DNA of 61,316 nucleotides, from positions 1 through 61,316 of the forward strand of contig JASHRC010000275.1 of assembly GCA_030037525.1 (NCBI GenBank), written 5' to 3'. The DNA is from Candidatus Acidiferrales bacterium (GTDB taxonomy: Bacteria; Acidobacteriota; Terriglobia; Acidiferrales; UBA7541). A program made the position numbers and the translations under genes. Below the pieces are notes generated by a model. It was not told where the DNA came from. It made no database searches and saw only the letters and a program-made list of their open reading frames with translations. Positions 18,258 to 49,495 of the stretch are shown here, piece after piece; position 1 is the stretch's first letter, and every line of letters starts with the position of its first letter.

Positions 18258-18271
18258 GTGACGGTCGTCAC
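18258..18271. promoter_or_regulatory. Crp/Fnr-type palindrome upstream of had
   Basis: GTGACGGTCGTCAC is a perfect GTGA-N6-TCAC dyad, 51 bases before the had start. An AT-rich TCATATCG lies about 30 bases downstream of its centre, where a -10 element would sit if the site were a class II activator site. One of five copies in the window, all in control regions. Confidence 0.6.
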
Positions 18272-18322
18272 CGCCTCGCGCCCGAGCATCTCATATCGTG
18301 ACGGCTATCCACGATTGAGCGA

Positions 18323-19429
18323 GTGAGGTGGAAATTGACGAGTGTACAGGGGGCGCACGGGTTTCAACTAACCGCCTCGAATACGACTTTGCAGCCTTGC
18401 ACACTCCCGGTCCTGACCCCAGGCCCTGACCAAGTTATCGTAGAGGTTGCAGGTTGCGGTGTCTGCCATACCGACCTCGCCTTTACGTTCGACGGGGTTC
18501 CCACGCGTCACGCCCTGCCCTTGGTCCTTGGCCATGAGATCTCGGGGAGAGTCGTCGCCGCGGGCGAAAATGCATCTTCCTGGCTCGGACGACCGGTGAT
18601 TGTCCCCGCGGTAATCCCGTGCGGATCGTGCCCGGCATGCCGGGCGGGTCAGCCGACAATCTGTCGTCAGCAGTTCATGCCGGGCAATGACGGCGATGGC
18701 GGTTTTGCCACCCATGTTCTGGTGCCGTCTCGCGGGCTATGTACTGTGCCCGAAATTCTGCCACCTGGGCTCACGCTGGAGATGTTGTCGGTCGTTGCGG
18801 ATGCGGTGACCACGCCTTATGAAGCGATCCGCAGGGCCGAACTGGGGTCGCAGGACGTGGCTGTAATCGTGGGCGTCGGTGGCATAGGCGGATTCGCAGT
18901 GCAAATTGCGGCCGCGCGGGGTGCCGCAGTGGCTGCCATTGACATCGACAGCGAACGACTGGAACTGGCCGGCCGGCACGGCGCTGGACTCCTGCTGGAT
19001 GCCAGCTCGACCGACCTCAAGGGTTTGAAAGCCGCTATTCGCGCATTCGTCCGTGCATCCGGGCGCGTTGCGATGGGCTTGAAGATTTTCGAAATGAGCG
19101 GCACGCCGGCCGGACAAGCCACTGCGTTTGGACTGCTGGATCACGGTGCCTATCTTGCAGTCGTCGGTTTCACGCCCAAACCTGTCGAGATTCGGCTATC
19201 CAATCTCATGGCGTTCGACGCAATCGCACGGGGAAACTGGGGTTGCCCGCCGGACCAGTATCCTGCTGCGCTGAGGCTCATACTGGATGGCAAGGTCGTC
19301 CTCACTCCGTTTGTCGAACTCCATCCACTGGAGGAAGCGCCCGCGATTTTCGAGGCCGTCAGGGGGCACGCGATCCGACGGCGAGTTATTTTGCAGCCGA
19401 ACCAAAACCAGGGAGCGCACAGACCATGA
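18323..19429 (+). CDS. had: 6-hydroxycyclohex-1-ene-1-carbonyl-CoA dehydrogenase
   Basis: A 368-residue zinc alcohol dehydrogenase. The catalytic zinc site shows as Cys and His in GCGVCHTDLAF and GHEISGRVVAAGE; the structural zinc Cys cluster is CGSCPACRAGQPTIC; the NAD fold is IVGVGGIGGFAVQIAAARGA. Length and order match Had of the benzoyl-CoA pathway, which oxidises the hydroxylated ring product of Dch to the 6-oxo compound with NAD. The identification rests on the direct had-oah-dch order with ATGA overlaps. The start is GTG at 18323; a TTG at 18335 is possible. Confidence 0.85.
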   Translation: MRWKLTSVQGAHGFQLTASNTTLQPCTLPVLTPGPDQVIVEVAGCGVCHTDLAFTFDGVPTRHALPLVLGHEISGRVVAAGENASSWLGRPVIVPAVIPCGSCPACRAGQPTICRQQFMPGNDGDGGFATHVLVPSRGLCTVPEILPPGLTLEMLSVVADAVTTPYEAIRRAELGSQDVAVIVGVGGIGGFAVQIAAARGAAVAAIDIDSERLELAGRHGAGLLLDASSTDLKGLKAAIRAFVRASGRVAMGLKIFEMSGTPAGQATAFGLLDHGAYLAVVGFTPKPVEIRLSNLMAFDAIARGNWGCPPDQYPAALRLILDGKVVLTPFVELHPLEEAPAIFEAVRGHAIRRRVILQPNQNQGAHRP

Positions 19430-24696: not shown

Positions 24697-25314
24697 TTGT
24701 CGCGCCCTGCGCCTGGTTCGAGCCTTTACCTTTCTGTGGTAATAGCGATCGGGGTGGCCGCTCTGGGGCTGGCCATTTTAGAAAGAGCGTTGTCCGCCGA
24801 GGCGATGAGCGCTGCCGAGGAAGAGAGCTCGGGAGCTTTTACTCCCGCCCATCCCACCCTCTACGATGCGGTTCGCGAATTTTTCGAGATCCGCTCGAAA
24901 CCAGTCCAGCCGATTGCTTATACGCACAAAGTGCATCTGGCCAATGGCATGCAATGCACCGATTGTCATGTAGGTGTTGACCAGGGACCCGATGCCAGAA
25001 TCCCCAGCGTCAATTTCTGCATGACCTGCCACCAGGTCATTGCCACCCAACAGCCGGAAATCAAGAAACTGGCGGCCTATAAGGCGCGAGGCGAAGACGT
25101 TCCCTGGCAACGCGTTTACGGCTTTGAACGCTCGGCGCACGTGAAGTTCAATCATGCGCCGCACATTCGCGCTGGAGTAGATTGTTCGGTTTGCCACGGC
25201 GATATGAGGCAGCAGACGGTGGCGGAACGAAAAGTGGATCACACCATGGGGTTTTGCGTCAGTTGTCATCAGCAAAAAAACGCCTCGGTGGATTGCGTGA
25301 CTTGTCATTTCTGA
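24697..25314 (+). CDS. Pentaheme c-type cytochrome (ActA-like)
   Basis: A 205-residue protein with an N-terminal membrane anchor (SLYLSVVIAIGVAALGLAIL) and five CxxCH heme motifs: CTDCH, CMTCH, CSVCH, CVSCH and CVTCH. Extra His residues (THKVH, FNHAPH, VDHTMGF) can be the distal ligands, as in cytochrome c3/c7-type proteins. Five hemes and gene order match ActA of alternative complex III and the cytochrome of Qrc-type complexes. It would pass electrons from the MopB/Fe-S/NrfD module at the outer face of the membrane. TTG start with AAAGAGGA upstream. Confidence 0.85.
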   Translation: MSRPAPGSSLYLSVVIAIGVAALGLAILERALSAEAMSAAEEESSGAFTPAHPTLYDAVREFFEIRSKPVQPIAYTHKVHLANGMQCTDCHVGVDQGPDARIPSVNFCMTCHQVIATQQPEIKKLAAYKARGEDVPWQRVYGFERSAHVKFNHAPHIRAGVDCSVCHGDMRQQTVAERKVDHTMGFCVSCHQQKNASVDCVTCHF

Positions 25315-25354
25315 CGGGTGGTTGGGCGGCGCCCGGAATCGCTTTCGAGGATCT

Positions 25355-27604
25355 ATGCAGCGTCGTGATTTCCTGAAAATCTCGGCAGTGGCGGGAGCGA
25401 CAGCAGCACTGGAAGGTTGCGGTAATCCGGATCATCAGCTGATCCGCTTTGTGCCGGAAGAAGATTTGATTCCGGGCATCGCCACTTGGAAGCCGAGTAT
25501 CTGCACGCTGTGCCCGGCGGGCTGCGGTTTGCTGGTGCGCGTGATGCAAGGGGAAGCGGAGGTGGTGCGCGAGGGACGACTCGGTCTGCTGAAGATGGGG
25601 CTGGCGAAAAAGCTGGAGGGTAATCCCGCGCACCCCATCAATCAAGGAAAACTCTGCCCGCGCGGCCAGGCAGGACTGCAGGTCACCTACCATCCGGATC
25701 GGATCCAAGGGCCGCTGGCCCGCGTCGGGCCGCGTGGCTCGGGCCAGTTTCGAGAAATGACCTGGGAGAGTGCCACCAGGCAGCTGGCGTCCCAGCTCGC
25801 GGATCTGCAAGAGAGCGGTCAGGAGGGCAGTCTGGCACTCATCACCTCTCCGCTTCGCGGGCAGAAGAGGGCGATTTTGGACGCATTCGCAAACCATTTC
25901 AAGAAATCGCTCCCCGTGGAACTGGCGTTTTTTGACGACAGCACGATCCGTGCGGCGAATCTAGCGAGCTTCGGCCATGCCCTGCCCCTCACCCTGGACC
26001 TGGGCCAGTCAAACTACGTGGTCTCATTCGGCGCAGATTTTCTCGGCACCTGGAACTCTCCGGTGGCGCAGGCCATCGGGTTCGGCCGCATGCGCACAGG
26101 CCGTCCGGGCGAGCGCGCCAAATTTGTGCAATTCGAGCAGCGCATCTCGCAAACCGGAGCGAGCGCAGATGAGTGGATTCCCGTTCAGCCTGGGACCGAA
26201 GGTGCGGTCGCTCTGGGGCTCGCCCACGTCATGTTGGCGGAAAATCTGCGGCCGGCTGCTGGTGCAGGCCACGCCGGCTTGCTCCTCGAGGGGTGGTCGG
26301 AGGGGCTTCCCGACTACGCGCCCGAAAAAATCGCCGCACAAACCGGCGTGAAGGCCGAAACGATCGTCCGCATCGCGCGGGAAGCTGCCGCGCACGACCC
26401 CGCCGTGGCCATACTCGGTGGCGCCGCTGCCGCGCATACCAACGGGCTCGTTGGCGCGCTTGCGGCGAACGCGCTCAACGCCCTTCTCGGCAGTGTGGGC
26501 AAGCCCGGCGGAATTCTGTTCCCTCCCTTACTGGCCGCGAAGGAGTCCGGGATTTCGCTTGAGATCTTGGCCTCCCAGATCAATTCCCGCGCAGCCGCCG
26601 CAAAAGTTCTCCTGGTCTATAACGCAGATCCCGTGTTCTCGGCTCCGGCGGCGTGGGGCGTGCGGGCCGCTCTCGATAAGATTCCCTTTATTGCCAGCTT
26701 CAGCAGTTTCCTGGATGAGACGACCATGCTTGCCGATCTGATCCTGCCCGATCATTCGCCGCTGGAGTCGTGGCTGGACGATGCGCCGCCTTCCGGCTCG
26801 GCGAGAACGATTCGGAGCGTGGCGCCGCCCGCCATGCATCCGCTTCACAACACACGCTCGATGCCGGACGTTCTTTTGGACCTGGCGCACCAGCTGGGCG
26901 GCGATCTCGCCAGCACATTGCCCTGGAAAACATACGACGAGGCGATCGAGGCCTCCTTTGCCGCGCTTTACAAAGAGAAGGGAACCAAGATCGCCAAGGA
27001 CGCCGACGAGTTCTGGCAGAAAGCGCAGGATCAGGGCGGCTGGTGGAGCACAGAGCCGGAAAGCGTTCCGGCCTCTCCGGCCGGCGCACCCAGTGGTGTC
27101 GTCAAACCGCGAGCGCCCGAGTTCGCGGGCGACCCGAACGACTACCCATTCCACTTTTTGCCTTTTGCGTCCCAGCTTCTCTACGACGGCTCACTGGCCC
27201 ACCTGCCCTGGATGCAGGAAGCGCCCGATCCTCTTTCGACCGTCATGTGGGGCACCTGGGTCGAGGTCAATCCGCGCACGGCTCGGAAGCTGTCACTCCA
27301 GCCAGGAGACCTGGTGGAGGTCACGTCGCCCCACGGCAAGCTCGAAGCGCCGGCGCTCGTCAATCCCGGCATTGCGCCGGATGTGATCGCCATGCCCGTT
27401 GGGCAAGGGCATCAGAATTTCACGCGCTATGCCAGTGGCCGGGGCGCGAACCCCATTTCCATCTTGTCGCCGCTCACGGTGGAGGGCACCCAGTCGCTGG
27501 CTTGGGCGGCCACGCGCGTGAAGCTTTCCGTGGTGGGCCGCGGGAAGTTGATTTTATTCGGTGGCAGTTTGACCGAAGTTTCACCGGAGCTCGAACACCG
27601 GTAG
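25355..27604 (+). CDS. Molybdopterin-oxidoreductase-like subunit (ActB1/QrcB-like)
   Basis: A 749-residue MopB-family protein with a twin-arginine leader (MQRRDFLKISAVAGATAALE). Cysteines C50, C53, C57 and C101 (SICTLCPAGCGLL, GKLCPRGQAGL) form a possible N-terminal [4Fe-4S] site. The MopB domains follow, with SNYVVSFGADFLGTWNSPVA and the C-terminal DPNDYPFHFLPFASQLLYDG and RYASGRGANPISIL. No Cys or SeCys stands at the usual molybdenum-ligand position (AANLASFGHAL). In alternative complex III and Qrc the related subunit has lost the Mo cofactor; here that remains open. Confidence 0.85.
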   Translation: MQRRDFLKISAVAGATAALEGCGNPDHQLIRFVPEEDLIPGIATWKPSICTLCPAGCGLLVRVMQGEAEVVREGRLGLLKMGLAKKLEGNPAHPINQGKLCPRGQAGLQVTYHPDRIQGPLARVGPRGSGQFREMTWESATRQLASQLADLQESGQEGSLALITSPLRGQKRAILDAFANHFKKSLPVELAFFDDSTIRAANLASFGHALPLTLDLGQSNYVVSFGADFLGTWNSPVAQAIGFGRMRTGRPGERAKFVQFEQRISQTGASADEWIPVQPGTEGAVALGLAHVMLAENLRPAAGAGHAGLLLEGWSEGLPDYAPEKIAAQTGVKAETIVRIAREAAAHDPAVAILGGAAAAHTNGLVGALAANALNALLGSVGKPGGILFPPLLAAKESGISLEILASQINSRAAAAKVLLVYNADPVFSAPAAWGVRAALDKIPFIASFSSFLDETTMLADLILPDHSPLESWLDDAPPSGSARTIRSVAPPAMHPLHNTRSMPDVLLDLAHQLGGDLASTLPWKTYDEAIEASFAALYKEKGTKIAKDADEFWQKAQDQGGWWSTEPESVPASPAGAPSGVVKPRAPEFAGDPNDYPFHFLPFASQLLYDGSLAHLPWMQEAPDPLSTVMWGTWVEVNPRTARKLSLQPGDLVEVTSPHGKLEAPALVNPGIAPDVIAMPVGQGHQNFTRYASGRGANPISILSPLTVEGTQSLAWAATRVKLSVVGRGKLILFGGSLTEVSPELEHR

Positions 27605-27619
27605 GGAAGGTCCGAGGAC

Positions 27620-29657: not shown

Positions 29658-29658
29658 T

Positions 29659-30248: not shown

Positions 30249-31829
30249 TCAGATAGGCGTGAATTCGCCGGAAACGACCATCTTTTCACTGAGGGCGCGG
30301 GCCTGCTGGAACTGGTTCCTGGTTTCCACAGGGGTGTCCGTCGGCAATTCGTTGAGGATGCGGGCGAGCTCCTGGTCGAAGATCTGGGTGATTCGTTCGG
30401 GTGTGTGGGAAACGGGCTGGCCGTTCTCATCCACGATTCGGACCGCGTCGCGATGGCGGACCCGTTGGCCGATCATCAGCCGGTAGATGCGATCGGTAGC
30501 AAGATCCTCCATGTAGCCATCCAGGAGACTTGCGCCCTGGCCCGCGAGCACGCCCTGCCGGTAGCGAATCACCGTACGAATTGCCGCACGCGTCCCCGCA
30601 AGCGTCCGTTTGCCAACGCCCACCGGGATCGGTCGCAGATCGGGTGTGGGTTCCGCGTGGGCCGGCCGCGCTTTCAATTGGTTGGGGAAAGGAAACTGGT
30701 TTACGGCAATTTCATTTTGGTCGGGATGACCCGTCCACGCGCCATCCATCAGGCAGATCGCTTCGTTCTTCTTGTCCTTCTCAAGGACAGCAAGCGCACG
30801 CGCATTCAATTCGGGATCCTCGCGGCTAGGATAAAGCGCGGTCATTCCTCCGATGGCGAGCATCCCGTGCTTGTGGCAGATTTCCGGTATGCGATTGCGC
30901 AGGTTTTGAAAGAAGGCGACGTCGTGCGGAATCGTATTTCGATCCGGCAGGACCCAGCGCGGGTCGGGGAGGTTGAAATGGATCAGACTGGCCATATAAT
31001 CCCATCTTCCCAGGTTCAACCCCAGTAGGTGTTCGCGCAGGTTGTAGGCGAACTCCTCCATCTGATAGGCGAGCGGATGGGATTCGACAAGTGCCATGCA
31101 CTTGATAAAATCCCTTGGCCAACCCCTGGCCCGGCTGATGGCCTGGAAAAGGTCGCGCCACCAAAGCCCTTCTTCTGCCGACTCCGATTTGGGAATGTAG
31201 AAGGCCAGCGGATGCTTCAACTCGCCAGGGTCAGCTTGGAAAGCAACCAACGCCACATCGAAAAGCGACGCCGGCAGGATCCCCTCGCCCATCACTCCCG
31301 CTTGATGAATATGCAGCCCCCGGGGTCTGACAAAAATCGCCGAGCGACTGGGCTGGATCGAAACGGTACGGTTCCGTTTACGGTCGAAATAGCTAAGCTC
31401 GCCGCGCAGCGCCGCCAGCACATTTGCGATGCCTTGCGAGACATGCGTCCAAGTGTTGGCCACAGAATCTTCAAGATCCAGCATCACGCCTGGCGCACCT
31501 GAATTCAGCATCTTGACGGACAACTCTCGGTCGTCGGCGGGCCCCGTCATTTGGTTGCGCTGATCCACGCACCAGTCAGGCAGTTCGATTTGCCACCCTT
31601 GAAGCGTCGCCCGAGAGGGAGGTAGGTAGTCCGGAAGCTTTCCCTGGTGCGCTGCCGCGAGCGCCACCGCGCGTTTGTGGACGAGCTCACCCTGCCACGG
31701 CGTGAAGGTCTGATCGAGAGGGCGCAAGAAATCGGCGAACCCTTTGGGCAGATCCCGCACCGGATCGAAACCCGCTGGTGTTGTGTTCATGGGCTGAAGG
31801 GTTTCGCGCGGGATCCTGCGTGCGTTCAT
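30249..31829 (-). CDS. aceB: Malate synthase
   Basis: A 526-residue malate synthase A-type protein, which condenses glyoxylate with acetyl-CoA. Conserved parts: GAPGVMLDLEDSVANTW, IFVRPRGLHIHQAGV with the catalytic Arg, LNLGRWDYMASLIHF, MDGAWTGHPDQNEIA, and DGYMEDLATDRIYRLM, the acid residue region. The segment usually written ETLxAxFxMxEI reads ESHPLAYQMEEF, a divergent version. No isocitrate lyase is nearby, but the gene shares a Crp/Fnr-type site with the thioesterase on the other side and so may serve aromatic-derived acetyl-CoA. ATG at 31829. Confidence 0.85.
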   Translation of the reverse strand: MNARRIPRETLQPMNTTPAGFDPVRDLPKGFADFLRPLDQTFTPWQGELVHKRAVALAAAHQGKLPDYLPPSRATLQGWQIELPDWCVDQRNQMTGPADDRELSVKMLNSGAPGVMLDLEDSVANTWTHVSQGIANVLAALRGELSYFDRKRNRTVSIQPSRSAIFVRPRGLHIHQAGVMGEGILPASLFDVALVAFQADPGELKHPLAFYIPKSESAEEGLWWRDLFQAISRARGWPRDFIKCMALVESHPLAYQMEEFAYNLREHLLGLNLGRWDYMASLIHFNLPDPRWVLPDRNTIPHDVAFFQNLRNRIPEICHKHGMLAIGGMTALYPSREDPELNARALAVLEKDKKNEAICLMDGAWTGHPDQNEIAVNQFPFPNQLKARPAHAEPTPDLRPIPVGVGKRTLAGTRAAIRTVIRYRQGVLAGQGASLLDGYMEDLATDRIYRLMIGQRVRHRDAVRIVDENGQPVSHTPERITQIFDQELARILNELPTDTPVETRNQFQQARALSEKMVVSGEFTPI

Positions 31830-31900: not shown

Positions 31901-31914
31901 GTGATAGCAGTCAC
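31901..31914. promoter_or_regulatory. Crp/Fnr-type palindrome between malate synthase and thioesterase
   Basis: GTGATAGCAGTCAC, a perfect GTGA-N6-TCAC dyad, is 71 bases before the malate synthase start and 56 before the thioesterase start, on opposite strands. It could control both. Confidence 0.6.
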
Positions 31915-31970: not shown

Positions 31971-32402
31971 ATGCTGACGTATCGAAGGCGCATTCAAATC
32001 GAATGGGGAGACTGTGACGCAGCAGGAACGGTCTTTTTTCCGCGCTATTTCGAGTACGGCGATGCCTGCACCAATGCGTTGTTCGGCAAGGCCGGGTTGT
32101 TCAAGCGCACCATGCTGAAAACGTACAACATTCCTGGTCTGCCGATTGTTGACGTGCGCGCGCGGTTTATCATCCCTTCGGACTTCGGAGATGAGGTGGT
32201 GTACGAAACCAGCATTACCGAGTGGGGGCGCAGCAGTTTCATGGTTCGTCACCAGGTGTATAGACCCGATGGAAGTCTTAGCCTTGAGATTTTCGAGAAG
32301 CGCGCATGGGTAAAGCGGATCAGCGAGGATCCCGTGAAATTTCAAAGCGAACCCATTCCCGATGAGGTGAGGAAGCGATTTACCGATGATTCTGCTGTGT
32401 AA
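31971..32402 (+). CDS. Acyl-CoA thioesterase, 4-hydroxybenzoyl-CoA thioesterase family
   Basis: A 143-residue hotdog-fold thioesterase. The 4-HBT motif is clear in IEWGDCDAAGTVFFPRYFEY, with the catalytic Asp in WGDCD. It probably hydrolyses an aromatic or alicyclic CoA ester, releasing CoA when intermediates build up, as thioesterases in benzoate clusters do. It faces bcrD tail to tail with 51 bases between. AAGGGACAC is the likely ribosome site. Confidence 0.85.
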   Translation: MLTYRRRIQIEWGDCDAAGTVFFPRYFEYGDACTNALFGKAGLFKRTMLKTYNIPGLPIVDVRARFIIPSDFGDEVVYETSITEWGRSSFMVRHQVYRPDGSLSLEIFEKRAWVKRISEDPVKFQSEPIPDEVRKRFTDDSAV

Positions 32403-32453: not shown

Positions 32454-33275
32454 TTATCCAAAAACGTAGGATTCTGGCTCTTTGATTCCACCCAGCTTCT
32501 GCAAACGTTGGTAAGCGAGCAATGCAGCACCGAGCGCAGCGACCGTATCGGGTTCCTCGCTGACGTTCACCGGACGATGGATGGTCTGTTTCAGAGCTTC
32601 TACCATTCCGCTCTGGCGGGCCACACCACCAACAAAAGTGACTTCGTCTTCCAGGCCAACACGGGAAAGCAGCGCTTTCGAGCGAGAGGCCAGTGAATTG
32701 TGGATACCGCGGATGATGTTCTCAACCGTTTGGCCGTCGCTGACGTGGTTAATGATCTCCGATTCCGCCAACACGGCGCAGACGCTGCTGATCGTGGTGG
32801 GTTTATCTGCGCCCATCGATAATTCGCCAAGCTGAGTGAGGGGAATCTCCAGATAGTGCGCTGCCCTTTCCAGGAACCCTCCCGAGCCGGCGGCGCACTT
32901 GTCATTGGACTTGAACTCTTTCACCTTACCCCCTTCGCGCAACCGGATGGCCCGTGTGCTCTGGCCGCCCACATCAAGCACGCAGGCCGTATTCGGAAAT
33001 AAGAACTCCGCCCCCCGGGCCGCGCAGGTGATGTCGGTGATCTGGATGTCGCGGAAGGGCACGTTGTAGCGTCCCAAGCCCGTGGTGGCGACATATTTTA
33101 CGTCCTCCTGGCGGCCACCGGCCTTCGCCAGCGCCTGCTCCATGGCTTCGCGGGCGACCGCGGGGAAATCGGGGCGCGTTTTGATTAGGGCGGTGCCGCA
33201 GACACGCCGTGAGTCGTCCAGTAGGACAGCTTTTGTGCTTCTGGATCCAATGTCGATTCCCGCCACATAAGCCAT
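32454..33275 (-). CDS. bcrD: Benzoyl-CoA reductase, activating ATPase subunit (BcrD/BzdQ-like)
   Basis: A 273-residue BadF/BadG/BcrA/BcrD ATPase (ASKHA fold). Phosphate loop: AGIDIGSRSTKAVLLDD; second loop: ACVLDVGGQSTRAI; adenosine motif: VTFVGGVARQSGM. Two cysteines that bind a shared [4Fe-4S] cluster at the dimer interface lie in SNDKCAAGSGGFLE and SSVCAVLAESEI. With the sister subunit it couples ATP hydrolysis to electron transfer into the reductase. Last gene of the bcr run; 21 bases follow bcrA. Confidence 0.88.
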   Translation of the reverse strand: MAYVAGIDIGSRSTKAVLLDDSRRVCGTALIKTRPDFPAVAREAMEQALAKAGGRQEDVKYVATTGLGRYNVPFRDIQITDITCAARGAEFLFPNTACVLDVGGQSTRAIRLREGGKVKEFKSNDKCAAGSGGFLERAAHYLEIPLTQLGELSMGADKPTTISSVCAVLAESEIINHVSDGQTVENIIRGIHNSLASRSKALLSRVGLEDEVTFVGGVARQSGMVEALKQTIHRPVNVSEEPDTVAALGAALLAYQRLQKLGGIKEPESYVFG

Positions 33276-33296
33276 AGGTCACCTCGATAACCGAAT

Positions 33297-34160
33297 TCAG
33301 GTCTGCTGCGCGGCACTCGGCTGCGATGATGCGGGGGCCTCCCGCCGGCCGACTTTTGCTGGCCCCGCGGAAGCCTCCCCTCCCAAGGCCCGCTCGAGCG
33401 CGAAGATGGCCGCGCCGATGGCGCCGATGAAGTGCGAATCGTCGCAAACGTTTACCGGCAATCCCAGTTTTTCTTCCAAAGCTTTTACCATCCCGATATT
33501 CCGAGATACACCGCCGGTGAAGGCGACCTCCGGCTCGATTCCGACACGGCGCACCAAGGCCACGGTGCGAGCGGCGATCGCACTATGGACGCCGCCCAGA
33601 ATGTCCGGCACGGTTTTTCCCTCGGCCAGATACGACATGATGTCGGATTCAACGAAGACTGCGCAGACCGTGCTCAGGCGCACCGGCTTGGTCGCTTCCA
33701 GGGAAATGGGACCGATCTGATCCAGGCTAAGCCCGACGGTCTCTGCGGCGTTGGAGAGGAAGCGACCTGTGCCGGCCGCGCACTTGTCGTTCATGACGAA
33801 GTCCTTCACATCTCCCTGCTCTCCCACGCGGATGCCCTTGGCGTCCTGACCGCCCATGTCAATGACGGTTCGTGTTTGGGGGAACAGGAAATTCGCGCCA
33901 CGGGCGTGACAGGAGATTTCGGTGATCTGGGCGTTTCCGAAATTTACTTTGTACCGGCCGTAGCCCGTGCCCACAACGTAGGCGATGCCCTCGGGTGGGA
34001 CGCCGGCGGCGGAGGCCGCTTGCTTGAATGCACGCTCGGCTGCCATCGAGACATTCGCTCCCGTATTGATCAAAGCGCGGGCGACGATTTGGCGGTCCTC
34101 TGAAAGAATCACTGCTTTCGTTTGCGTTGATCCGACGTCTACTCCTGCTCCGTACGTCAT
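33297..34160 (-). CDS. bcrA: Benzoyl-CoA reductase, activating ATPase subunit (BcrA/BzdP-like)
   Basis: A 287-residue ASKHA ATPase paralogous to bcrD. It has [59 protein letters not shown] with one cluster Cys, [19 protein letters not shown] with the other, and [20 protein letters not shown]. Both activases being under 300 residues resembles the Azoarcus Bzd set rather than the Thauera set, in which BcrA is over 400 residues. Start at ATG 34160 with AGGCAGG upstream; the longer frame to 34256 would overlap bcrB. Confidence 0.88.
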
Positions 34161-34215
34161 GTTGCCTGCCTTTCCGTGTGTCCTTCTGCTCCTGCCACGA
34201 GCTGGACAGCTGACC

Positions 34216-35490
34216 TCAGCTTTTGACGACCATCCTCTGGTGCTCCAACGCTTCAAAGAATGCGTCCACGCGATTTCGCAATTGCGCCTCGGAGAAGTAA
34301 CGCGGGTCTTCGATATCTGATTCGATCAGGAGCGTGGGGACGTTGAGTTGCTTGGTGAAATATTCCCTCATATCGCCCTGGCCGGCTGAAAACAGTCGGC
34401 AGCTCTTGACGGAATGAATGACCAGCGCGTCAGCGTTCCAATCCCGCACGTAGTCTTTGATCTGACGATAGCGTTGAAGGAAATTTCGATTCGTCAGATT
34501 CCACTGCAGCATGTGGCGAGCAATGCTCTCGATCGGTCGCTGTGGATCGTGCCGGAAACCGAACTCCCAGATGCCGCCGACGGTCGAATACGTAGAAGCG
34601 ACCGCCACGGCGCCCCAGCGGCTGAACAGGTCGCGAAACTGTCGCAGGTAGGGCCAAGGCGGAGGGCCCTCCATCACCACACGAAACTTTTCCTCAGGAA
34701 GCGGGCCTTCGTGCCTGTCCGCCCTCTCCTTCATTTCCTTGTACGCTTGCTGAAAGAACCAGAGTCCGTCCTCGGTGCCGCGCAAGCAGTAGAGCGGAGC
34801 CATCATCATGACGGAATCGAAATACGCGTCGAACGGAGCCGGGCGTTGCTGGGTGAGCGTCTTGATGTCCGACCACAAGGCGCCTGTTTCCCCGGAGAGT
34901 TCGACGATATGCTGCAGTCTCTTGTAGTCCAGTTTCCGTCCGCTCATGCGTTCCAGAATTTCAATCAATTCTTCCAACTGCTTGACGACGTAATGGACAT
35001 CGTCCTCGCTGGGCTCATCGGCGTTGGTCCGGAAGAATGGGACGTCCAGGTTATAAATGGGGGCTTTGGAATACTCCCTCAAGTGCTCGAACCATTGCAG
35101 GTACACATTGCAGCCGACGTAATTGCAAAGAATCAGGTCCGGTTCGGGGATGGTTGCGAAGGGAGTCTTGCGGCCGGCAAAGTACATGCCCACGTCGGCC
35201 TTGACATATGCGCAGTTGTCGGTCGAGTAGCCCATCTCTTCGGCGGCCAAAATGAGAGGCAGCGATTGCTTCTTCACCGCGAGCTGCAGTGCGTTGACCT
35301 CGGGGTAGACCGGAATCATGTCAAAAGCCTCAATGAGCTCGACGGGGTTGCCGCTGATCAACATGTAGATGGCCTTCTCCCCCTGGTTTTCCGCCGCAGC
35401 GGTCAGCCGGGAGTAATAGCGGCCAATCATGTCCTTTTGAAGATTGTGGATCCGTCCCTGGTAATCCGTTTTTGCTGGACTTTGCGCCAT
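34216..35490 (-). CDS. bcrB: Benzoyl-CoA reductase catalytic subunit (BcrB/BzdO-like)
   Basis: A 424-residue HgdB/BcrB-family protein. Cluster cysteines appear in [31 protein letters not shown] and [18 protein letters not shown]. Other family marks are [13 protein letters not shown] and [12 protein letters not shown]-type helices. With BcrC it holds the [4Fe-4S] clusters and binds benzoyl-CoA, which is reduced to the 1,5-diene. AAGGAG lies before the ATG. Confidence 0.9.
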
Positions 35491-35523
35491 AGCCAGGCTC
35501 CTTCGCCGATGAATTCCTCTATT

Positions 35524-36705
35524 TCAGTCGAACAACAGCGATTCCACGAATGTTTCTGCCTCCGAGCGAACGCGATCAAAACTCCAAGTTTTCTCCTCAA
35601 ATTCCAATAGCAGGTGAGGAATCTTGGCCTCCTCGAGAGCCTTGCGGTAGAGGGCATAATCGAATAAAGCAGGTTCGCAAAACTTGGCAGCCTGGAACAC
35701 CACTGCGTCTGCCTTCTTTTCTCGAGCCAGGCGGATCAAGTGTTCCGCCTTGGACTCCCGCGAATCGTGTTTGGTGCCGGAATAATAGGCGCGCTCGGAA
35801 TAACTCTCGGCGAGCGCCGCCAGCGGATGGTCACCGATGGGCACATCTTCGGTGAACCATCTCCACCCCCGCAAAAAATCATCATCCAGGATGTAACAGC
35901 CGGCCTGCTCTAATGTTTCAATCAAACCGATCGGGGGTAGTTCGCAGAAAGAGCCTTCCAGAACAACCCGAATCCGGTCCTTGGGTTTGACGGGCCGTGT
36001 GGGAAGCTCTCGCAGGACTTGGTCGAGTAGGTTCAGGAAGTCTTCCGGAGCCATCAGCGTGCCAGCCCTGGTCAGCACGAATGACTCCGCAGCCGAAATC
36101 AAGTGGGGGGTTTCGGTTCTGATTCGGTAGATCACCCGCAATGCGCTTCGAACCTGGTTGTAGAGGCCGAGGCTGCGGTTCAAATCCTCGGTGGTAGGGG
36201 CATGGCCGGATCTTTGCTCGAGCCCGTCCAGAATCCGGCGGTACTCTCTCGCCAAATACTGTCGGGCCAGGGGGGACGCGAAGTTCTGAGGAAAGTGAAT
36301 ATATTCGACAAACAGATTCGGGAAATTTCGCTGGAACACGCTGGATAGATTTCTGGCCGGGTCGCAGATGGAGTGGAATAACAGTCCTTCCAGGAAATTA
36401 AGCCGGTTCGTCAGACCCAGTTCGAGCGTGCTCTTGACAATCGAGCAGACGAAGGACTGAAAACGGGAATCGGCAAAGGTGATCTCGATTTGATTGCCGG
36501 CGCCAATGACGCCCAGCGGCAACATGCCGGAGGCATGAATCAGTTCCACGGGGCAGTAGACCGGAAAGCAGCCGATGGCCTTTCGCCCCGGGTGTTGTTC
36601 GAGCCAGCGCTTGGCGACGGAAAACTCGGGATCCTGAGCCATGTCCCGACAGGAAGCAAAAATGGAATCCAGAAGTGAAACCTCTGGGATCAGTGTCGTA
36701 GCCAC
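35524..36705 (-). CDS. bcrC: Benzoyl-CoA reductase catalytic subunit (BcrC/BzdN-like)
   Basis: A 393-residue partner of bcrB in the same superfamily. It has GCFPVYCPVELIHASGMLPL, SFVCSIVKSTLELGL, FHSICDPARNL, VVLEGSFCELPPIGLIE and AKFCEPALFDYALYRKAL, giving the cysteines for an iron-sulfur cluster and the substrate pocket. It starts with GTG after GAGGAGGAAAC. First gene of the reductase run; a dyad-rich region lies between it and the Rrf2 gene. No ferredoxin gene is beside the subunits, unlike most bcr/bzd clusters. Confidence 0.88.
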   Translation of the reverse strand: MATTLIPEVSLLDSIFASCRDMAQDPEFSVAKRWLEQHPGRKAIGCFPVYCPVELIHASGMLPLGVIGAGNQIEITFADSRFQSFVCSIVKSTLELGLTNRLNFLEGLLFHSICDPARNLSSVFQRNFPNLFVEYIHFPQNFASPLARQYLAREYRRILDGLEQRSGHAPTTEDLNRSLGLYNQVRSALRVIYRIRTETPHLISAAESFVLTRAGTLMAPEDFLNLLDQVLRELPTRPVKPKDRIRVVLEGSFCELPPIGLIETLEQAGCYILDDDFLRGWRWFTEDVPIGDHPLAALAESYSERAYYSGTKHDSRESKAEHLIRLAREKKADAVVFQAAKFCEPALFDYALYRKALEEAKIPHLLLEFEEKTWSFDRVRSEAETFVESLLFD

Positions 36706-36822: not shown

Positions 36823-36839
36823 AACCTCTTAGGCCCTCC

Positions 36840-39191: not shown

Positions 39192-40397
39192 TCAGCAGCG
39201 CTCCAGAATCGTCGCAATTCCCTGTCCCACTCCGATGCACATGGTGCAGAGCGCGTAGCGTTCCCGCAAGCGCTCGAGCTGGTAGAGGGCCGCTGTGACC
39301 AGACGCGCCCCGCTGGCGCCCAGCGGATGCCCGATCGCGATCGCTCCTCCGTTCGGATTTACATGGTCGGCCGAATCCGGCAGGCCCAGCTCGCGCAAGA
39401 CGGCCAGTGCTTGCGCCGCGAAGGCTTCGTTCAACTCAATGACCTGCATATCAGCCAGCGACAGGCCCGTTTGTGAGAGGACCTTGCGAGTCGCTGGGAC
39501 CGGTCCCATCCCCATGATTCGCGGCTCGACGCCTGCGACCGCGGTGCTCACGATGCGGACGCGGCCTCTCAGACCGTAGCTTTCGGCTGCCCTTTCCGAG
39601 GCGAGCAGCAGTGCACAGGCACCGTCGTTGATCCCCGACGCGTTTCCGGCGGTGATCGTTCCGTTCGCTTTCACGATGGGCTGGAGCTTGGAAAGATTCT
39701 CAAAGGTGGTGTCGGGACGCGGATGCTCGTCGGTGTCGAACCGTTTGACCTCTCCTTTCTTCTGAGGGATCGAAACGGAGATCAGGTGGGACTTAAAAAA
39801 ACCGTCCGCCTGCGCCTTGGCCCATCGCTGCTGGGTTCGTAAGGCGAATTGATCCTGATCGGAGCGCGCTACGCGGAAGTCCTCGGCTACGTTTTCCGCC
39901 GTTTCTGCCATGGAATCGATTCCGTACTTGCTCTTCATCCGCAGATTGACAAATCGCCATCCAATGGTTGTGTCGAAAATCTCAGCGGTTCGGCTGAACG
40001 GTTGATCCGCTTTTCCGATCACGAAAGGAGCCCGCGACATGCTCTCCACGCCGCCAGCGATGACCAGGTCCGCCTCGCCGCATTTGATGGCTCGCGCGGC
40101 CATTCCAATCGCGTCCATGCTCGAACCGCAAAGGCGATTCACCGTGGTGCCCGGAACCTGGGGCGGCAAACCGGCCAGCAAGGCAGCCATTCTGGCAACA
40201 TTGCGGTTGTCCTCTCCGGCCTGGTTGGCACAGCCCAGAATCACGTCGTCGACGGATCCCCAATCGACCTGTGGATTGCGTTCCATCAAGGCGCGAATGG
40301 GAATGGCCGCAAGATCGTCGGTGCGGATCGACGAAAGCGCGCCGCCATAGCGCCCAAAAGGAGTCCGAACTGCATCGCAGATCACGGCGCTCGTCAT
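39192..40397 (-). CDS. Thiolase (3-oxopimelyl-/3-oxoadipyl-CoA type)
   Basis: A 401-residue thiolase. The nucleophile Cys is in [15 protein letters not shown], the catalytic His in [20 protein letters not shown] and the second Cys in [16 protein letters not shown]. The N-terminal [20 protein letters not shown] and [16 protein letters not shown] resemble PcaF/PaaJ, which cleave dicarboxylic 3-oxoacyl-CoAs. In this setting it should split 3-oxopimelyl-CoA to glutaryl-CoA and acetyl-CoA. Its start overlaps the HADH stop by 4 bases. Confidence 0.87.
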
Positions 40398-41983
40398 GAA
40401 CGGCCCCCCGGTGAATTTGCCGCCATCTCAAGCGAGAGCCCATCGGACGTCATGGTCTTTCCGGCCCAGACGAGTTGTTGGATTTTCGACGAGACCCGAT
40501 AGCGTTCTCCCCCGTAGTGACTCGCAAGGTTCCGAAGCACTTTCTGGACGGCTGGGAGACCCAGCGTATCGGCCCAAGCCAGAGGGCCTTGCGGATAATT
40601 GACCCCTTTGCGCATTGCTGTATCGACATCCGCAGCCGTGGCGACGCCCTGATTGACGACGTCAGCGGCTTCGTTCGCGAGCATGCTCAGCGTTCGCATG
40701 ACAACCATGCCTGGAACATCTTTGATCCGGGAGACGAGATAACCCGCAGATTGGAGTAGTCCAACGATCGAGCCGTAGGCGTCGTCGGTGCATCCGTCCG
40801 CCTTGGCGACCGCAATGCGCGTGGCCTTTCGATAGTCGAGCGCGAGGTCAACCGTCACCGAGTTCAGGCGCCCGGTTTCACTTGCGACTTGTGTGGCGGT
40901 GCGACCGTCGGTGACCGTAAGGATCGCGTCGTCGACTTCGATCCAATCGGGATCCTCTGGGAGGTGGTCTCTGGAAATGACGGCCACCTCGGAAGGGGCC
41001 AATCTCTCTGCCAACGCATGTGCGAGAGGGTTGGTAAGGCGAAGGGTGGCGCGCTTCGGTTTTCGGGCCGGCGGCTCTGTTTGCGGCTGCGGCTTTTCTG
41101 CGCTTTCGCCATACCGGTAGAATCCGCGTCCGGCCTTCCGACCGAGGTACCCGGCACGAACCATTTCTTGCTGGATGACAGAAGGCCGATAACGAGCGTC
41201 TCCAAAGTAGGCTTGGAACAGTGATTGGCTGACGGCCAGACCGATGTCGAGGCCGATGAGATCCATCAACTCGAATGGACCCATGGGGAACCCCCCGGCC
41301 TCCCGCATCACGGCATCCAGCGTGGCTGGATCCGCGGCTTGTTCGGCGAGCAGAACCAGGGCCTCTCCGTAATAAGCTCGAGCCACACGATTCACGATGA
41401 AACCGGGCGTTGATTTGGCGACAACGGCCCACTTGCCCCAAGCCGACGCCGTCGCCCGAGCGGCGGCGATCACTTGCGCATCGGTTGTCAGGCCGCCAAT
41501 GATCTCGACCAGTTGCATCACCGGAGCCGGATTGAAGAAATGCATCCCGACCAGCCGCTCAGGCCGCTGGAGCGACGCTGCAATCGCGCTGATCGAGAGT
41601 GAAGACGTATTGGTCGCAAAAATGCAGTTCGCATCCACCACGTTTTCGAGCTCTCCGAACAACTGGCGCTTGGCTTCGAGTTCCTCCACGATCGCCTCGA
41701 TGACGATGGCTGCTCCGCGAAGGTCTCCCAAGGTGGACGCAGCGCGAAGCCCCTCCCCCGCGCTCTGGGCCGAATCGCTGGAAATTTTACCTTTGGAAGC
41801 CAGCTTCTGGAAATTTTGGCGGATCCCTTGAATCGCAGTCGGTACAGCATCGGGCCGTGCATCATAGAGAATCACAGGATGCCCTCGACTGGCTGCGACC
41901 TGTGCGATGCCAGCTCCCATCGTTCCGCTGCCGACTACCGCGACGAGGCTCCCTGGTGGAATTGCGCTGGAGGTGATGACCAT
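40394..41983 (-). CDS. 3-hydroxyacyl-CoA dehydrogenase (PaaH/HbdA-type)
   Basis: A 529-residue enzyme: Rossmann domain (SLVAVVGSGTMGAGIAQVAA), catalytic His/Glu region in GMHFFNPAPVMQLVEIIGG, NRVARAYYGEALVLL with EAGGFPMGPFELMDLIGLDI, then a second C-terminal domain (YLVSRIKDVPGMVVMRTLSM, NYPQGPLAWADTLGL). This long form occurs in phenylacetate and dicarboxyl-CoA routes. It would oxidise 3-hydroxypimelyl-CoA from Oah. ATG at 41983; the frame runs to 42043 but a Crp/Fnr-type site lies just beyond. Confidence 0.87.
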   Translation of the reverse strand: MVITSSAIPPGSLVAVVGSGTMGAGIAQVAASRGHPVILYDARPDAVPTAIQGIRQNFQKLASKGKISSDSAQSAGEGLRAASTLGDLRGAAIVIEAIVEELEAKRQLFGELENVVDANCIFATNTSSLSISAIAASLQRPERLVGMHFFNPAPVMQLVEIIGGLTTDAQVIAAARATASAWGKWAVVAKSTPGFIVNRVARAYYGEALVLLAEQAADPATLDAVMREAGGFPMGPFELMDLIGLDIGLAVSQSLFQAYFGDARYRPSVIQQEMVRAGYLGRKAGRGFYRYGESAEKPQPQTEPPARKPKRATLRLTNPLAHALAERLAPSEVAVISRDHLPEDPDWIEVDDAILTVTDGRTATQVASETGRLNSVTVDLALDYRKATRIAVAKADGCTDDAYGSIVGLLQSAGYLVSRIKDVPGMVVMRTLSMLANEAADVVNQGVATAADVDTAMRKGVNYPQGPLAWADTLGLPAVQKVLRNLASHYGGERYRVSSKIQQLVWAGKTMTSDGLSLEMAANSPGGRS

Positions 41984-42045: not shown

Positions 42046-42059
42046 GTGACGAGCGTCAC
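42046..42059. promoter_or_regulatory. Crp/Fnr-type palindrome between HADH and glutaryl-CoA dehydrogenase genes
   Basis: GTGACGAGCGTCAC, a perfect GTGA-N6-TCAC dyad, lies 62 bases before the HADH start and 85 before the glutaryl-CoA dehydrogenase start, which diverge from here. Confidence 0.6.
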
Positions 42060-42144
42060 AGCTTCCCAGGGGCCCCTCTCTCTAGTGTGCTTGGTACGTT
42101 CGCGCATTTGCTGTGGCGACGAAGCGGAGCAAAAGGAGGACGGG

Positions 42145-43317
42145 ATGCCCGCCTTTCCTGGTGTGGACTACTTGGACTTCGACGGGGTGCTCCATGACGA
42201 AGAACTTCTGGCCCGTCAGACCGCGAGGCAATTCGTCGATCAGCAGTTTCTTCCCATTGTCGAGAAGCACTATCGAGAAGCTACGTTTCCCACAGAGCTC
42301 GTTCCGCAATTGGGCACACTTGGATTCTTCGGCTCGAATCTGAAGGGCTACGGTTGCGCCGAGATGTCCAACGTAGCCTACGGATTGGTAATGCAGGAGC
42401 TCGAGAGGGGAGATTCGGGACTTCGGAGCTTTGTGTCGGTGCAAAGCGCACTGGTCATGTACCCCATCTACGCCTATGGTTCGCCCGCACAGAAACAGAA
42501 ATGGCTGCCGCGCTTGCAGAGCGGCGGAGCCGTTGGCTGCTTCGGACTCACCGAACCGCAGTTTGGCTCCAACCCCGGTGGGATGCTCACGCGTGCAGTT
42601 CGCCGCGGCGACCGCTACGTTCTGAACGGGGAGAAGATGTGGATCACCAATGGTTCGCTCGCCGACCTCGCGCTCGTGTGGGCCAGGTGCGAAGACGACC
42701 GGGTGCGGGGCTTTCTGGTGGAAAAAGGTACCAAGGGTTTCCGATCGCATGATGTGCACGGCAAGTGGTCCATGCGCGCTTCGGTGACTTCTGGGCTTTC
42801 CTTGAGCGATTGCGAGGTAGGGGCCGACAGTGTGCTTCCGGGCGTGGATGGTCTGCGTGGACCTCTCTCCTGCTTGACGCAGGCCCGCTATGGCATCGGG
42901 TGGGGAGCGATCGGTGCTGCGATGGCGTGCTACGACACTGCTTTGCGATATGCGAAATCGCGCAAGCAGTTCGCGAACAAACCCATCGCCTCGCATCAGC
43001 TCGTTCAGGATAAGCTGGCGTGGATGATCACCGAGATCTCCAAAGCGCAGTTGCTGGCGCTGCACGTCGGCCGATTGAAAGATAGCGATCGAATGCACCC
43101 CTCGCACGCGTCCATGCTCAAAATGAACAACGTGTGGATGGCACGGGAGACGGCGCGACTGGCTCGTGAACTATTGGGAGCAAACGGGATTGTAGAGGAC
43201 TACTGCATCATGCGCCACATGAACAACCTCGAATCGGTATACACCTACGAGGGCACTCACGATATTCAGCGCCTCATCATCGGCGAGCGAATCACCGGCA
43301 TCTCCGCCTATGTGTGA
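42145..43317 (+). CDS. gcdH: Glutaryl-CoA dehydrogenase
   Basis: A 390-residue acyl-CoA dehydrogenase of the GcdH type. GLRSFVSVQSALVMYPIYAY is the GcdH-specific stretch; FGLTEPQFGSNPGGM and WITNGSLADLALVWAR bind FAD; the catalytic Glu is in SVYTYEGTHDIQRLIIGERI. It oxidises and decarboxylates glutaryl-CoA to crotonyl-CoA and CO2, the last special step of benzoyl-CoA breakdown. AAAAGGAGGACGGG precedes the ATG at 42145. It is divergent from the HADH-thiolase pair that makes its substrate. Confidence 0.9.
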   Translation: MPAFPGVDYLDFDGVLHDEELLARQTARQFVDQQFLPIVEKHYREATFPTELVPQLGTLGFFGSNLKGYGCAEMSNVAYGLVMQELERGDSGLRSFVSVQSALVMYPIYAYGSPAQKQKWLPRLQSGGAVGCFGLTEPQFGSNPGGMLTRAVRRGDRYVLNGEKMWITNGSLADLALVWARCEDDRVRGFLVEKGTKGFRSHDVHGKWSMRASVTSGLSLSDCEVGADSVLPGVDGLRGPLSCLTQARYGIGWGAIGAAMACYDTALRYAKSRKQFANKPIASHQLVQDKLAWMITEISKAQLLALHVGRLKDSDRMHPSHASMLKMNNVWMARETARLARELLGANGIVEDYCIMRHMNNLESVYTYEGTHDIQRLIIGERITGISAYV

Positions 43318-46200: not shown

Positions 46201-46221
46201 GACGCTGCTCCTCGAATGTAA

Positions 46222-46998: not shown

Positions 46999-49398
46999 TT
47001 ACGCCTTGACCGTCTGCCGCCGCTTGGCACTTCTCTCCAGAAATTCAGCAACCCTGCGCCGCGTCTCAGGATGCTGATACAGCTTGCGCGTCGCAGCGAG
47101 CTCCTCGGCATAGCCGTCGCGGTGCGGATCGCCGAAAGCTGCCAGGCATCGCTTGCTCGCAGCCAGTGCCGGCCTGGGCGCTTGGGCCAACCGCGTCGCA
47201 AGCTCCCGTGTCCACTCGGCGAGTTGTGAAAGTGGCTGAGCCCATTGGACAATCCCCAGTCGCTCGGCGGTGGCGCCATCGACAATTTCACCACCCAGAA
47301 TGAGGCGGTTTGCCGTGCCGCAGCCGCAGAGACGAGTCAGCCGCTGTGTGCCGCCAGCCCCGGGCAGCAGGCCTAAATTCACCTCCGGCAAGCCGAGCTT
47401 TGCTTCGAGGGCGGCGACCCGAATGTCACAGGCCAGTGTCAGTTCCAAACCCCCTCCCATCGCCGCGCCGCCTATTTCGGCCAGCGCGACCAGGGGAGAG
47501 GACTCGATCCGCGCGAACAGGCGGTGCATCCTACGCACCAGATCAAGCATTACGTCCGGGCCCTCGAGCGTGCCGAAACACGACTGCATCAAAGCAAGGT
47601 CGGCCCCGGCACAAAACGCCTGCTGGTCGCTGCGGATATGCAGCACGGTTACTTCTTGATCTTCAATGGCGTGATCAACGATCGCGTCGAGCCGGTCGAT
47701 CATTTCATCGTTGAGTGCGTTTACGGGAGGACGGGACAGCGTGGCCACGACGATTCGACCGATCCGCTCAACCAAAATCATCGCTGGGGCCCTGCGCCTT
47801 TGGGAAGCCCGCCCTTGATCCGCAGCAGCGACACGCAGTTTGTAGCGCTGGATCTTTCCCGTTGCTGTCTTCGGTAATTTTTCGACCACGTGCACCCACG
47901 CTGGCAGTTTGTAGCGCGGGAGCACTGTTTCACAGAAATGCCGCAACTCTTCTTCGATCTCCGGACCCGAAACGGTCGAATCTTTCAGAACCACCCAGGC
48001 ATCGGCGTGCAGCAGGCCGTACTCATCCTTTCGACTGATGACCGCTGCTTCGAGAACTTGGGGATGTTGGACGAGGACCGATTCGATCTCGTAGGGCGAG
48101 ACCCATCGGCCGCTGACCTTGAACACATCGTCGCTTCGTCCACAGTAAACGAAGTATCCGTGCGCGTCGCGTCGAAGCGTGTCGCCGGTGTCGTACCAGC
48201 CGTCACTGATCATCTTGGCCGTGCGTTCCGGATCGTTCAAATACCGCTTGGTCACCGACTGTCCCTTTACCAGCAGTCGGCCGGGTACGTCGTCGGGAAC
48301 ATCGTTCCCGGCTTCATCGACCAGCCTGACCTCGTAACCGGGTATCGGCTTGCCGGTTACCCCGGGGCGAATATCGTCGACGCGGTTGGAGATGTAGATG
48401 TGGCCGGCTTCTGTCGAACCGAGGCCTTCCATGATCGGGACACCGGTTGTCGCGAGCCACTCGCGATGCAATTCGGGAGGCAACGCTTCGGCAGCGGAAA
48501 TACACCGGCGCAGACGAGGGACGTCCTTCCTGCTGAGCAGCCCGGAGGCCAAAAACTGGGCGTAGAAAGTAGGCACGGCGGCGAAGATGGTGGGGCGGCA
48601 CCCACGAAAAATTTCGAGCACGCTCTGCGGAGTCGGGCGCCGATCGTCGAGGATCGCCGTCGCTCCAACGTACAGAGGCCCGATCATGCCGATGTTCATG
48701 CCATAGGAGAAACACAGTCGCGCCACGCTGAAGAACGCGTCGTCATCAGTCGCGCCAAGAGTTTCGACCATATAGAACTGGCTGATCACAGCGACGTCGC
48801 CGTGCGCGTGCACCACGCCTTTGGGCAGACCCGTCGTGCCAGAGGAATAAAGAGAAAAGCAATCGTCTTCCGCTTTTGTAAATACCGCCTCGAGGTGCGA
48901 AGAAGCATGGTGGGCCAGATCCGTCACGGATTCACGGTCACCCTCGATCGGCAGAACGACTTTCGGCCTTGGGGACGAGGCTGCGAGCGCTGTCTCGATC
49001 GTGGTGGTGAACTCGCGTGAATGAAACAGTGCCGAACACTTGGAGTGCTGGATGATGAACTCGAAGTCGCTGGCGGGTGCCAAGCCGTTCAGCGGAATCG
49101 GCATCGCGCCGATCTTGACTGCCCCCCAGAACAGGAAGAAAAATTCCGGACAGTCTTTGATGGCCATCAATACGTGGTCGCCCGGTCGAATCCCGAGACT
49201 CGCCAGCGCGTTGCCGAACCGGTTTACGCTATCAACCAGCTCGGCGTAGCTTACCTCGCGCTCGAGCGTACGGATGGCCGCTTGGTTGCTGCGGCCCTCC
49301 GCGATGTGACGATCGATGAAGTAGTCAGCCGCATTGTACGGTTCGGGAAATCGAAGCCGTCGGACGCCCTCGTCGCTCGTTTCCATTACGACACCCAT
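46999..49398 (-). CDS. Benzoate-CoA ligase fused to enoyl-CoA hydratase
   Basis: A 799-residue two-domain enzyme. Residues about 1-525 are an ANL ligase of the benzoate-CoA ligase type: SLYSSGTTGLPKGVVHAHGD, CISAAEALPPELHREWLATT, GSTEAGHIYISN, GWYDTGDTLRRDAHGYFVYC and LPKTATGKIQRYKLR with the catalytic Lys. After a linker of some 15 residues, about 540-799 is a crotonase: DQQAFCAGADLALMQS, GGAAMGGGLELTLACD and LGLPEVNLGLLPGAGGTQRL, with both hydratase glutamates. There is no stop between them, and the internal Met at 47781 has no strong ribosome site. GAGGAG precedes the ATG at 49398. It leads the operon down to 43384. Confidence 0.88.
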   Translation of the reverse strand: MGVVMETSDEGVRRLRFPEPYNAADYFIDRHIAEGRSNQAAIRTLEREVSYAELVDSVNRFGNALASLGIRPGDHVLMAIKDCPEFFFLFWGAVKIGAMPIPLNGLAPASDFEFIIQHSKCSALFHSREFTTTIETALAASSPRPKVVLPIEGDRESVTDLAHHASSHLEAVFTKAEDDCFSLYSSGTTGLPKGVVHAHGDVAVISQFYMVETLGATDDDAFFSVARLCFSYGMNIGMIGPLYVGATAILDDRRPTPQSVLEIFRGCRPTIFAAVPTFYAQFLASGLLSRKDVPRLRRCISAAEALPPELHREWLATTGVPIMEGLGSTEAGHIYISNRVDDIRPGVTGKPIPGYEVRLVDEAGNDVPDDVPGRLLVKGQSVTKRYLNDPERTAKMISDGWYDTGDTLRRDAHGYFVYCGRSDDVFKVSGRWVSPYEIESVLVQHPQVLEAAVISRKDEYGLLHADAWVVLKDSTVSGPEIEEELRHFCETVLPRYKLPAWVHVVEKLPKTATGKIQRYKLRVAAADQGRASQRRRAPAMILVERIGRIVVATLSRPPVNALNDEMIDRLDAIVDHAIEDQEVTVLHIRSDQQAFCAGADLALMQSCFGTLEGPDVMLDLVRRMHRLFARIESSPLVALAEIGGAAMGGGLELTLACDIRVAALEAKLGLPEVNLGLLPGAGGTQRLTRLCGCGTANRLILGGEIVDGATAERLGIVQWAQPLSQLAEWTRELATRLAQAPRPALAASKRCLAAFGDPHRDGYAEELAATRKLYQHPETRRRVAEFLERSAKRRQTVKA

Positions 49399-49458
49399 GC
49401 TCGGTCTCCTCGACCGTCAACAGCACCCAAAAATATGTGATTTCCTGGCGAAATGGCG

Positions 49459-49495
49459 GTGATCTTGATCACTATTGGACCGTGATCTATGTCAC
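49459..49495. promoter_or_regulatory. Two tandem Crp/Fnr-type palindromes in the divergent ligase/UROD control region
   Basis: GTGATCTTGATCAC at 49459-49472 and GTGATCTATGTCAC at 49482-49495, both GTGA-N6-TCAC, have centres 23 bases apart, about two helical turns. The near site is 61 bases before the ligase start; the UROD start is 187 bases away on the other side. Confidence 0.62.

Follow-up and report, generated by a model that had tools for sequence, protein, structure and literature searches.

Which protein reads a palindrome that recurs in front of aromatic-degradation genes in an acidobacterial genome, and is its regulon confined to those genes? The palindrome, GTGAY-N4-RTCAC, lies in a 61,316-nt stretch (the window) of contig C86 from genome G000, a 4.22-Mb assembly of 286 contigs from a Candidatus Acidiferrales bacterium. 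Acidobacteriota are common in soil, and the box, its target genes and a candidate regulator would connect the anaerobic breakdown of aromatic compounds with the control of oxygen and stress responses. From their sequence and placement, the palindromes look like Crp/Fnr-type operators of a genome-wide regulon of which aromatic breakdown is predicted to be one branch. We put at roughly two in three the probability that this is a global Crp/Fnr regulon of the acidobacterial lineage, with tandem operators and with the family of one protein, L017, as the likely oxygen or redox reader.

Operators in the window and across the genome

Five copies of GTGAY-N4-RTCAC reported in the sequence-only reading were recovered at their positions; all lie outside called genes, at distances of 51-85 bases from a start. 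The operators, given without strand, and two related elements are as follows.

18258..18271, operator GTGACGGTCGTCAC, with 51 bp between it and the had start (GTG 18323)
18245..18248, half-site TCAC that faces the had operator from 9 nt upstream, a 23-bp pitch
31901..31914, operator between malate synthase (minus strand, 71 bases) and a thioesterase (plus strand, 56 bases)
42046..42059, operator between 3-hydroxyacyl-CoA dehydrogenase (HADH; minus strand, 62 bases) and an acyl-CoA dehydrogenase (plus strand, 85 bases)
49459..49472, first tandem operator before benzoate-CoA ligase, 60 bases from its start
49482..49495, second operator of this tandem pair, at a pitch of 23 bp
5058..5071, exact match inside a called DUF2490 gene (4883-5599)

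The match at 5058 was absent from the earlier list and is probably no operator. Because longer alternative open reading frames (31911-32414 on the minus strand, 42046-43317 and 49437-50948 on the plus strand) touch some of the sites, the noncoding status of the five depends on the codon-model gene calls; the had start at GTG 18323 is taken from the list of open reading frames, whereas the codon-model caller picked a later start at 18677.

The looser pattern GTGA-N6-TCAC occurs seven times in the window, compared with a mean of 0.85 and a maximum of four in 100 dinucleotide shuffles, and the refined pattern six times, compared with a mean of 0.23 and a maximum of two. Simulated intergenic DNA of the window, which makes up 15.2% of its length, gave 0.04 refined matches with at most one in any of 300 runs. 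Across G000 there are 51 matches to the refined pattern and four to its reversed control. Together the window shuffles, the simulated intergenic DNA and the genome-wide control rule out a chance origin of the palindromes.

The genome-wide scan that had been proposed as a check gave matches mostly outside called genes, with 45 of the 50 sites examined being intergenic according to a codon-model caller trained on the genes of the window. One of these (C88:19945) was dropped as a contig-end repeat of C42:22098, leaving 44 of 49, a strong bias relative to the intergenic share of the window (binomial p = 9e-31); C208:21925, close to the end of its contig, may fall in coding sequence. The logo of the G000 sites, gcTGTGAY-N4-RTCACAgc, is of the CRP class, and conservation weakens past about three bases on either flank of the palindrome.

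Predicted targets were genes facing away from a site within 700 bp, 30 of which were scanned for Pfam domains (eight without a match); C240:24918, C264:14958, C244:26379, C208:21925 and C79:7927 had no suitably placed called gene within this distance. Elsewhere in the genome, sites face two further aromatic genes, LigA (protocatechuate 4,5-dioxygenase alpha) and a LigB-type dioxygenase, and genes of stress and repair, including a universal stress protein, two Hsp20 proteins and a RIC-type iron-sulfur (Fe-S) repair protein. Redox genes are represented by the NiFe hydrogenase small subunit, cytochrome oxidase subunit II, a flavodoxin and the FAD subunit of a molybdenum enzyme. A radical SAM/B12 protein, a corrinoid protein and UPF0182, PQQ, UvrD, TonB, FAD-oxidoreductase, methyltransferase, outer-membrane and HD proteins complete the list, and Crp/Fnr genes are themselves preceded by sites. 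Given that the sites precede stress, hydrogenase, oxidase, Fe-S repair and Crp/Fnr genes besides aromatic ones, the regulon appears to be global, and the earlier proposal of one regulator for the aromatic pathway was right about the Crp/Fnr type of the sites but too narrow for a set of 51.

Tandem pitch and conservation in relatives

A scan of 61 relatives, in which 31 spacings were allowed, found 88 operator pairs compared with two for the reversed control, and 61 of the 75 pairs tallied by spacing stand at a pitch of 22 bp, with four at 23 bp, the spacing of the pair before the benzoate-CoA ligase gene (bcl) in the window. The same pitch is seen within G000: of 44 sites, 17 are accompanied at 22 bp, and two at 23 bp, by a partner with at most one mismatch, compared with a mean of 0.07 at other spacings; these partners lie in 15 promoter regions. 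It extends to half-sites, since 14 of the 21 bcr/had promoters from relatives have a facing TCAC exactly 8 nt upstream of the operator, which is again the 22-bp pitch. The spacers vary from pair to pair, and 80 of the 88 pairs occur in the 34 genomes that encode the L017 family. In a sample of the phylum searched with a stricter, refined pair pattern, which makes its rates not comparable with those from the looser pattern used on the 61 relatives, 17 of 297 genomes had a pair, and 10 of the 22 pairs, three of them in G000, were at 22 bp.

The simplest reading of the pitch is that adjacent dimers would sit two helical turns apart. Among the titles and abstract openings surveyed we found no description of such an Acidobacteriota regulon or of a 22-bp Crp/Fnr pitch, and in the available parts of PMC4999443, PMC1274295, PMC3050613 and PMC5499769 tandem sites are mentioned in one, for a Cmr-like case (PMC5499769). 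The 22-bp tandem pitch is new here and, being fixed and extending to half-sites, makes the cooperativity of adjacent Crp/Fnr dimers directly testable. In one relative, three successive operators spaced by 22 and 20 bp (G050:C74:6191-6246) form an array and not a pair.

Conservation before orthologous aromatic genes, expected if the sites are operators, was found at the bcrCBAD-had, had-first, bcl and HADH promoters of relatives. Of 37 had homologues, 32 come from metagenome-assembled genomes of Acidobacteriota (Terriglobia, Sulfotelmatobacter, Acidobacteriaceae and Thermoanaerobaculia), a result that puts G000 in this phylum; the remainder are four proteobacterial loci and one distant planctomycete match. 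With the operon head off the contig in three of the 32, a site stands at the head of 21 of the 29 acidobacterial clusters in view and of none of the four proteobacterial ones; among the 32 remaining operon heads of these loci, two have one. All 12 bcrCBAD-had operons with the head in view have a perfect site, which begins 47-50 bp ahead of the called bcrC start in 10 of them; at L083, L084 and L092 the automated count had scored a gene further upstream as lacking a site, and the site sits between that gene and bcrC. Nine of the 16 had-first operons have a perfect site, and the cluster in which another gene comes first (L074) has none. The sequence-only reading had left the bcr operon outside the regulon; this does not hold for relatives, although the 136-nt gap upstream of bcrC in the window itself (36706-36841) contains no match at zero or one mismatch.

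At the other promoters of the window, comparison with the closest genomes shows that G001 and G007 retain the tandem pair before benzoate-CoA ligase, spaced by 22 bp, whereas G005 and G022 have a single site there. The site before HADH is kept in G001, G005 and G007 and absent in G022, and in G005 it also faces an acyl-CoA dehydrogenase, as in the window. Malate synthase is divergent from the bcl tandem pair in G001; in G007 it lies on the same side of the pair, further away by one gene.

Another perfect palindrome, CGAACGNNCGTTCG, occurs at or near the bcrC start (before had in L097) in nine of 237 loci, all of them bcr/had clusters. We take it to resemble a TetR-type operator; coding constraint at bcrC may be the source of its conservation, and in the window it occurs at chance level. 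Its copies are as follows.

L079:849-862
L080:587-600
L083:936-949
L085:927-940
L088:919-932
L091:99-112
L094:841-854
L097:254-267
L106:936-949

The candidate reader and its alternatives

As had been supposed from the window, the regulator is not encoded there: all HTH_Crp_2 matches of G000 lie on contigs other than C86, six of them at 53-70 bits and a seventh, at 28 bits, barely above the cut-off. Four of the six strong proteins have the recognition helix RETV[TS]R, the other two having RELISR and PFTVSR. The candidate is as follows.

G000:C244:18745-19464, L017, candidate reader, with RETVTR and an N-terminal C-x2-C-x8-C

L017 adjoins genes for a universal stress protein and OsmC, and at locus L089 the neighbor of had is a Crp/Fnr gene that has the same cysteine motif. 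Its AlphaFold model has a Crp/Fnr-like fold (mean predicted local distance difference test score 87.3), to which GlxR/CRP is the closest solved fold and the first FNR ranks 19th. Across all 30 homologues fetched, one per genome, the DNA-recognition residues Arg-201, Glu-202, Thr-203 and Arg-206 are invariant, and Cys-13 is present in 30, Cys-16 in 28, Cys-25 in 29 and Cys-64 in 29. According to the part of PMC1274295 available, CRP residues 180 and 181 covary with positions 3 and 6 of the box. One G000 paralogue of this cysteine-bearing family, L019 (G000:C120), has lost the N-terminal cysteines and kept RETVTR.

The distribution of sites follows the family. Homologues of L017 are encoded in 34 of the 61 genomes, which have 8.5 sites per Mb compared with 4.6 in the other 27 (p = 2e-7), and within its own genus the values are 12.3 and 4.6 (12 and 8 genomes, p = 6e-5). 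The link holds when the number of HTH_Crp_2 matches is controlled for (partial r = 0.64), and TTGA boxes have no link to the family (rho = -0.21, p = 0.11). Among 28 of the 30 family genes (all except L188 and L189), the 400 bp upstream contain a perfect site in 14 cases and a pair at 22 or 23 bp in 10.

We propose that GTGAY-N4-RTCAC would be bound by a Crp/Fnr dimer whose recognition code, R-E-T-V-T-R, is that of CRP, and that at many promoters two dimers would lie side by side, two helical turns (22 bp) apart, the second on a site that may be full, weakened or a half-site. The L017 family would be the most likely reader; it, because of its FNR-like cysteines, probably senses oxygen or redox state; with falling oxygen it would adjust anaerobic aromatic, hydrogenase, respiratory and stress genes. 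Which paralogue binds, the presence of an Fe-S cluster, contact or cooperativity between dimers and the sign of regulation are matters that we infer from sequence. At bcrC the site ends about 35 bp ahead of the start codon, so close that the transcript might be repressed or, if it is nearly leaderless, activated. A more specific form of the proposal, in which an Fe-S Crp/Fnr sensor would combine FNR-like sensing with the CRP DNA code and bind as touching, cooperative dimers that give a sharp switch, a half-site being sufficient for the second, is tentative, and we rate it somewhat below even odds.

Several observations weigh against this assignment. Cys-112, at the place of the fourth FNR cysteine, is found in only 13 of the 30 homologues, two of the 30 lack Cys-16 and one of these also lacks Cys-25, and the family was defined by similarity (E up to 1e-25) and not by its cysteines. 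The density statistics treat genomes as independent of kinship, and the pair tally may count orthologous promoters repeatedly. L017 of G000 and 13 other family genes have no site within 400 bp upstream; six of the 16 had-first operons lack a perfect site with at least 350 bp upstream, and a seventh has only 174 bp. The paralogues L016, L018 and L019 also have RETVxR but lack the cysteines, so the GTGA box may be shared by more than one protein. Given that genomes without the family have about 4.6 sites per Mb compared with about one reversed-control match per Mb, other readers or coding background contribute, and two genomes without any HTH_Crp_2 match have 20 sites each.

Compared with known systems, the box and its reader combine features of two groups. 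With the CRP of E. coli and that of Mycobacterium and Corynebacterium (GlxR) they share the TGTGA-N6-TCACA box, the R-E...R residues and a global regulon, the palindrome here being mostly intergenic and the genome encoding a protein with the R-E...R helix; unlike these, L017 has N-terminal cysteines and the operators are often paired at 22 bp. The cAMP-contacting residues of CRP are Arg-82 and Ser-83, and this R-S stretch is not kept in the L017 alignment, a feature in which L017 departs from cAMP-responsive CRP. With FNR, FnrN, FixK and AadR it shares the Crp/Fnr fold, the N-terminal cysteine motif and anaerobic and aromatic targets, but the box is GTGA rather than TTGA and the cysteine spacing is C-x2-C-x8-C, whereas that of FNR is C-x2-C-x5-C. 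The cysteines of Bacillus FNR lie near the C terminus. A CRP-like box is also read, according to the available part of PMC1274295, by HcpR of Desulfovibrio (consensus wTGTGAnnnnnnTCACAw, main targets hcp and frdX), which has no FNR-type cysteine motif, and FNR of Bacillus subtilis is named there beside a regulator with a CRP-like motif. Because L017 carries the cysteine motif, identity with HcpR is spoken against. Cmr of Mycobacterium tuberculosis, as described in the portion of PMC5499769 available, is a Crp/Fnr protein that responds to redox through cysteines and has tandem site-like sequences before dosR and rv3134c, for which that portion gives no fixed pitch; unlike the present case, it has a TGTCA-type box and two cysteines only.

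The box might be read mainly by the cysteine-less L016, L018 and L019 in answer to another signal such as a nucleotide or metabolite, with L017 in a minor part. These three do carry RETVTR or RETVSR, and the called starts of L016 and L018 have sites 35 and 144 bp upstream, respectively. Site density, however, tracks the L017 family and, once that family is controlled for, not HTH_Crp_2 number (r = 0.20, p = 0.13), and the tandem pairs upstream of the 10 cysteine-motif family members also speak for the latter, so we regard this account as unlikely. More improbable still is the view taken in the sequence-only reading, an AadR/FnrN-type regulon in which one oxygen-sensing activator is dedicated to anaerobic aromatic genes. 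Sites before benzoyl-CoA pathway genes across Acidobacteriota and the FNR-like cysteines of L017 agree with it, but many of the 51 sites lie beside non-aromatic genes, and the TTGA-type box TTGAYNNNNRTCAA has nine matches in G000 (four for its reversed control) compared with 51 (and four) for the GTGA type. AadR belongs to the FnrN branch and the box of the FnrN/FixK group is of the TTGA type (PMC4999443, in the part available), whereas the best fold match of L017 is GlxR.

That the palindromes recur could also mean that they are a dispersed repeat or structural element and not operators at all. The fading of flank conservation, the differing spacers of the pairs and the position kept before orthologous starts while the flanks diverge speak against a repeat, and we give this explanation hardly any weight.

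Putative targets and neighboring genes in the window

The predicted targets in the window, and the bcr genes, are as follows.

18323..19429, plus strand, had, 6-hydroxycyclohex-1-ene-1-carbonyl-CoA dehydrogenase, putative target (TIGR03201, above cut-off)
30249..31829, minus strand, malate synthase, putative target (TIGR01344, under its curated cut-off)
31971..32402, plus strand, 4HBT thioesterase, putative target
40394..41983, minus strand, HADH, putative target
42145..43317, plus strand, acyl-CoA dehydrogenase (named gcdH in the earlier reading), putative target
46999..49398, minus strand, fusion of benzoate-CoA ligase and an enoyl-CoA hydratase domain, 799 amino acids, putative target (TIGR02262; AMP-binding and ECH_1)
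49683..50948, plus strand, URO-D family protein (PF01208), divergent putative target, with its called start 187-210 bp from both tandem sites
32454..36705, minus strand, bcrD, bcrA, bcrB and bcrC-like genes, without a site of their own, downstream of site 42046 on that strand

The bcr genes of the window may be reached by read-through from site 42046; the sequence-only reading had suggested Rrf2 as their possible regulator. Downstream of had lie oah and a dch-like gene. The ligase-hydratase fusion has a near full-length match in G001 and G007, whereas in G005 and G022 the match is split into two stretches. Positions 24754-30195, which separate the had and bcr regions, hold genes for cytochrome c, a QrcB-like molybdopterin oxidoreductase, an FeS protein and DsrP-like and ActD proteins, a module of the alternative complex III or Qrc-like electron-transfer type. 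The F420 biosynthesis genes cofG, cofH and cofD adjoin the aromatic cluster at 50996-54369.

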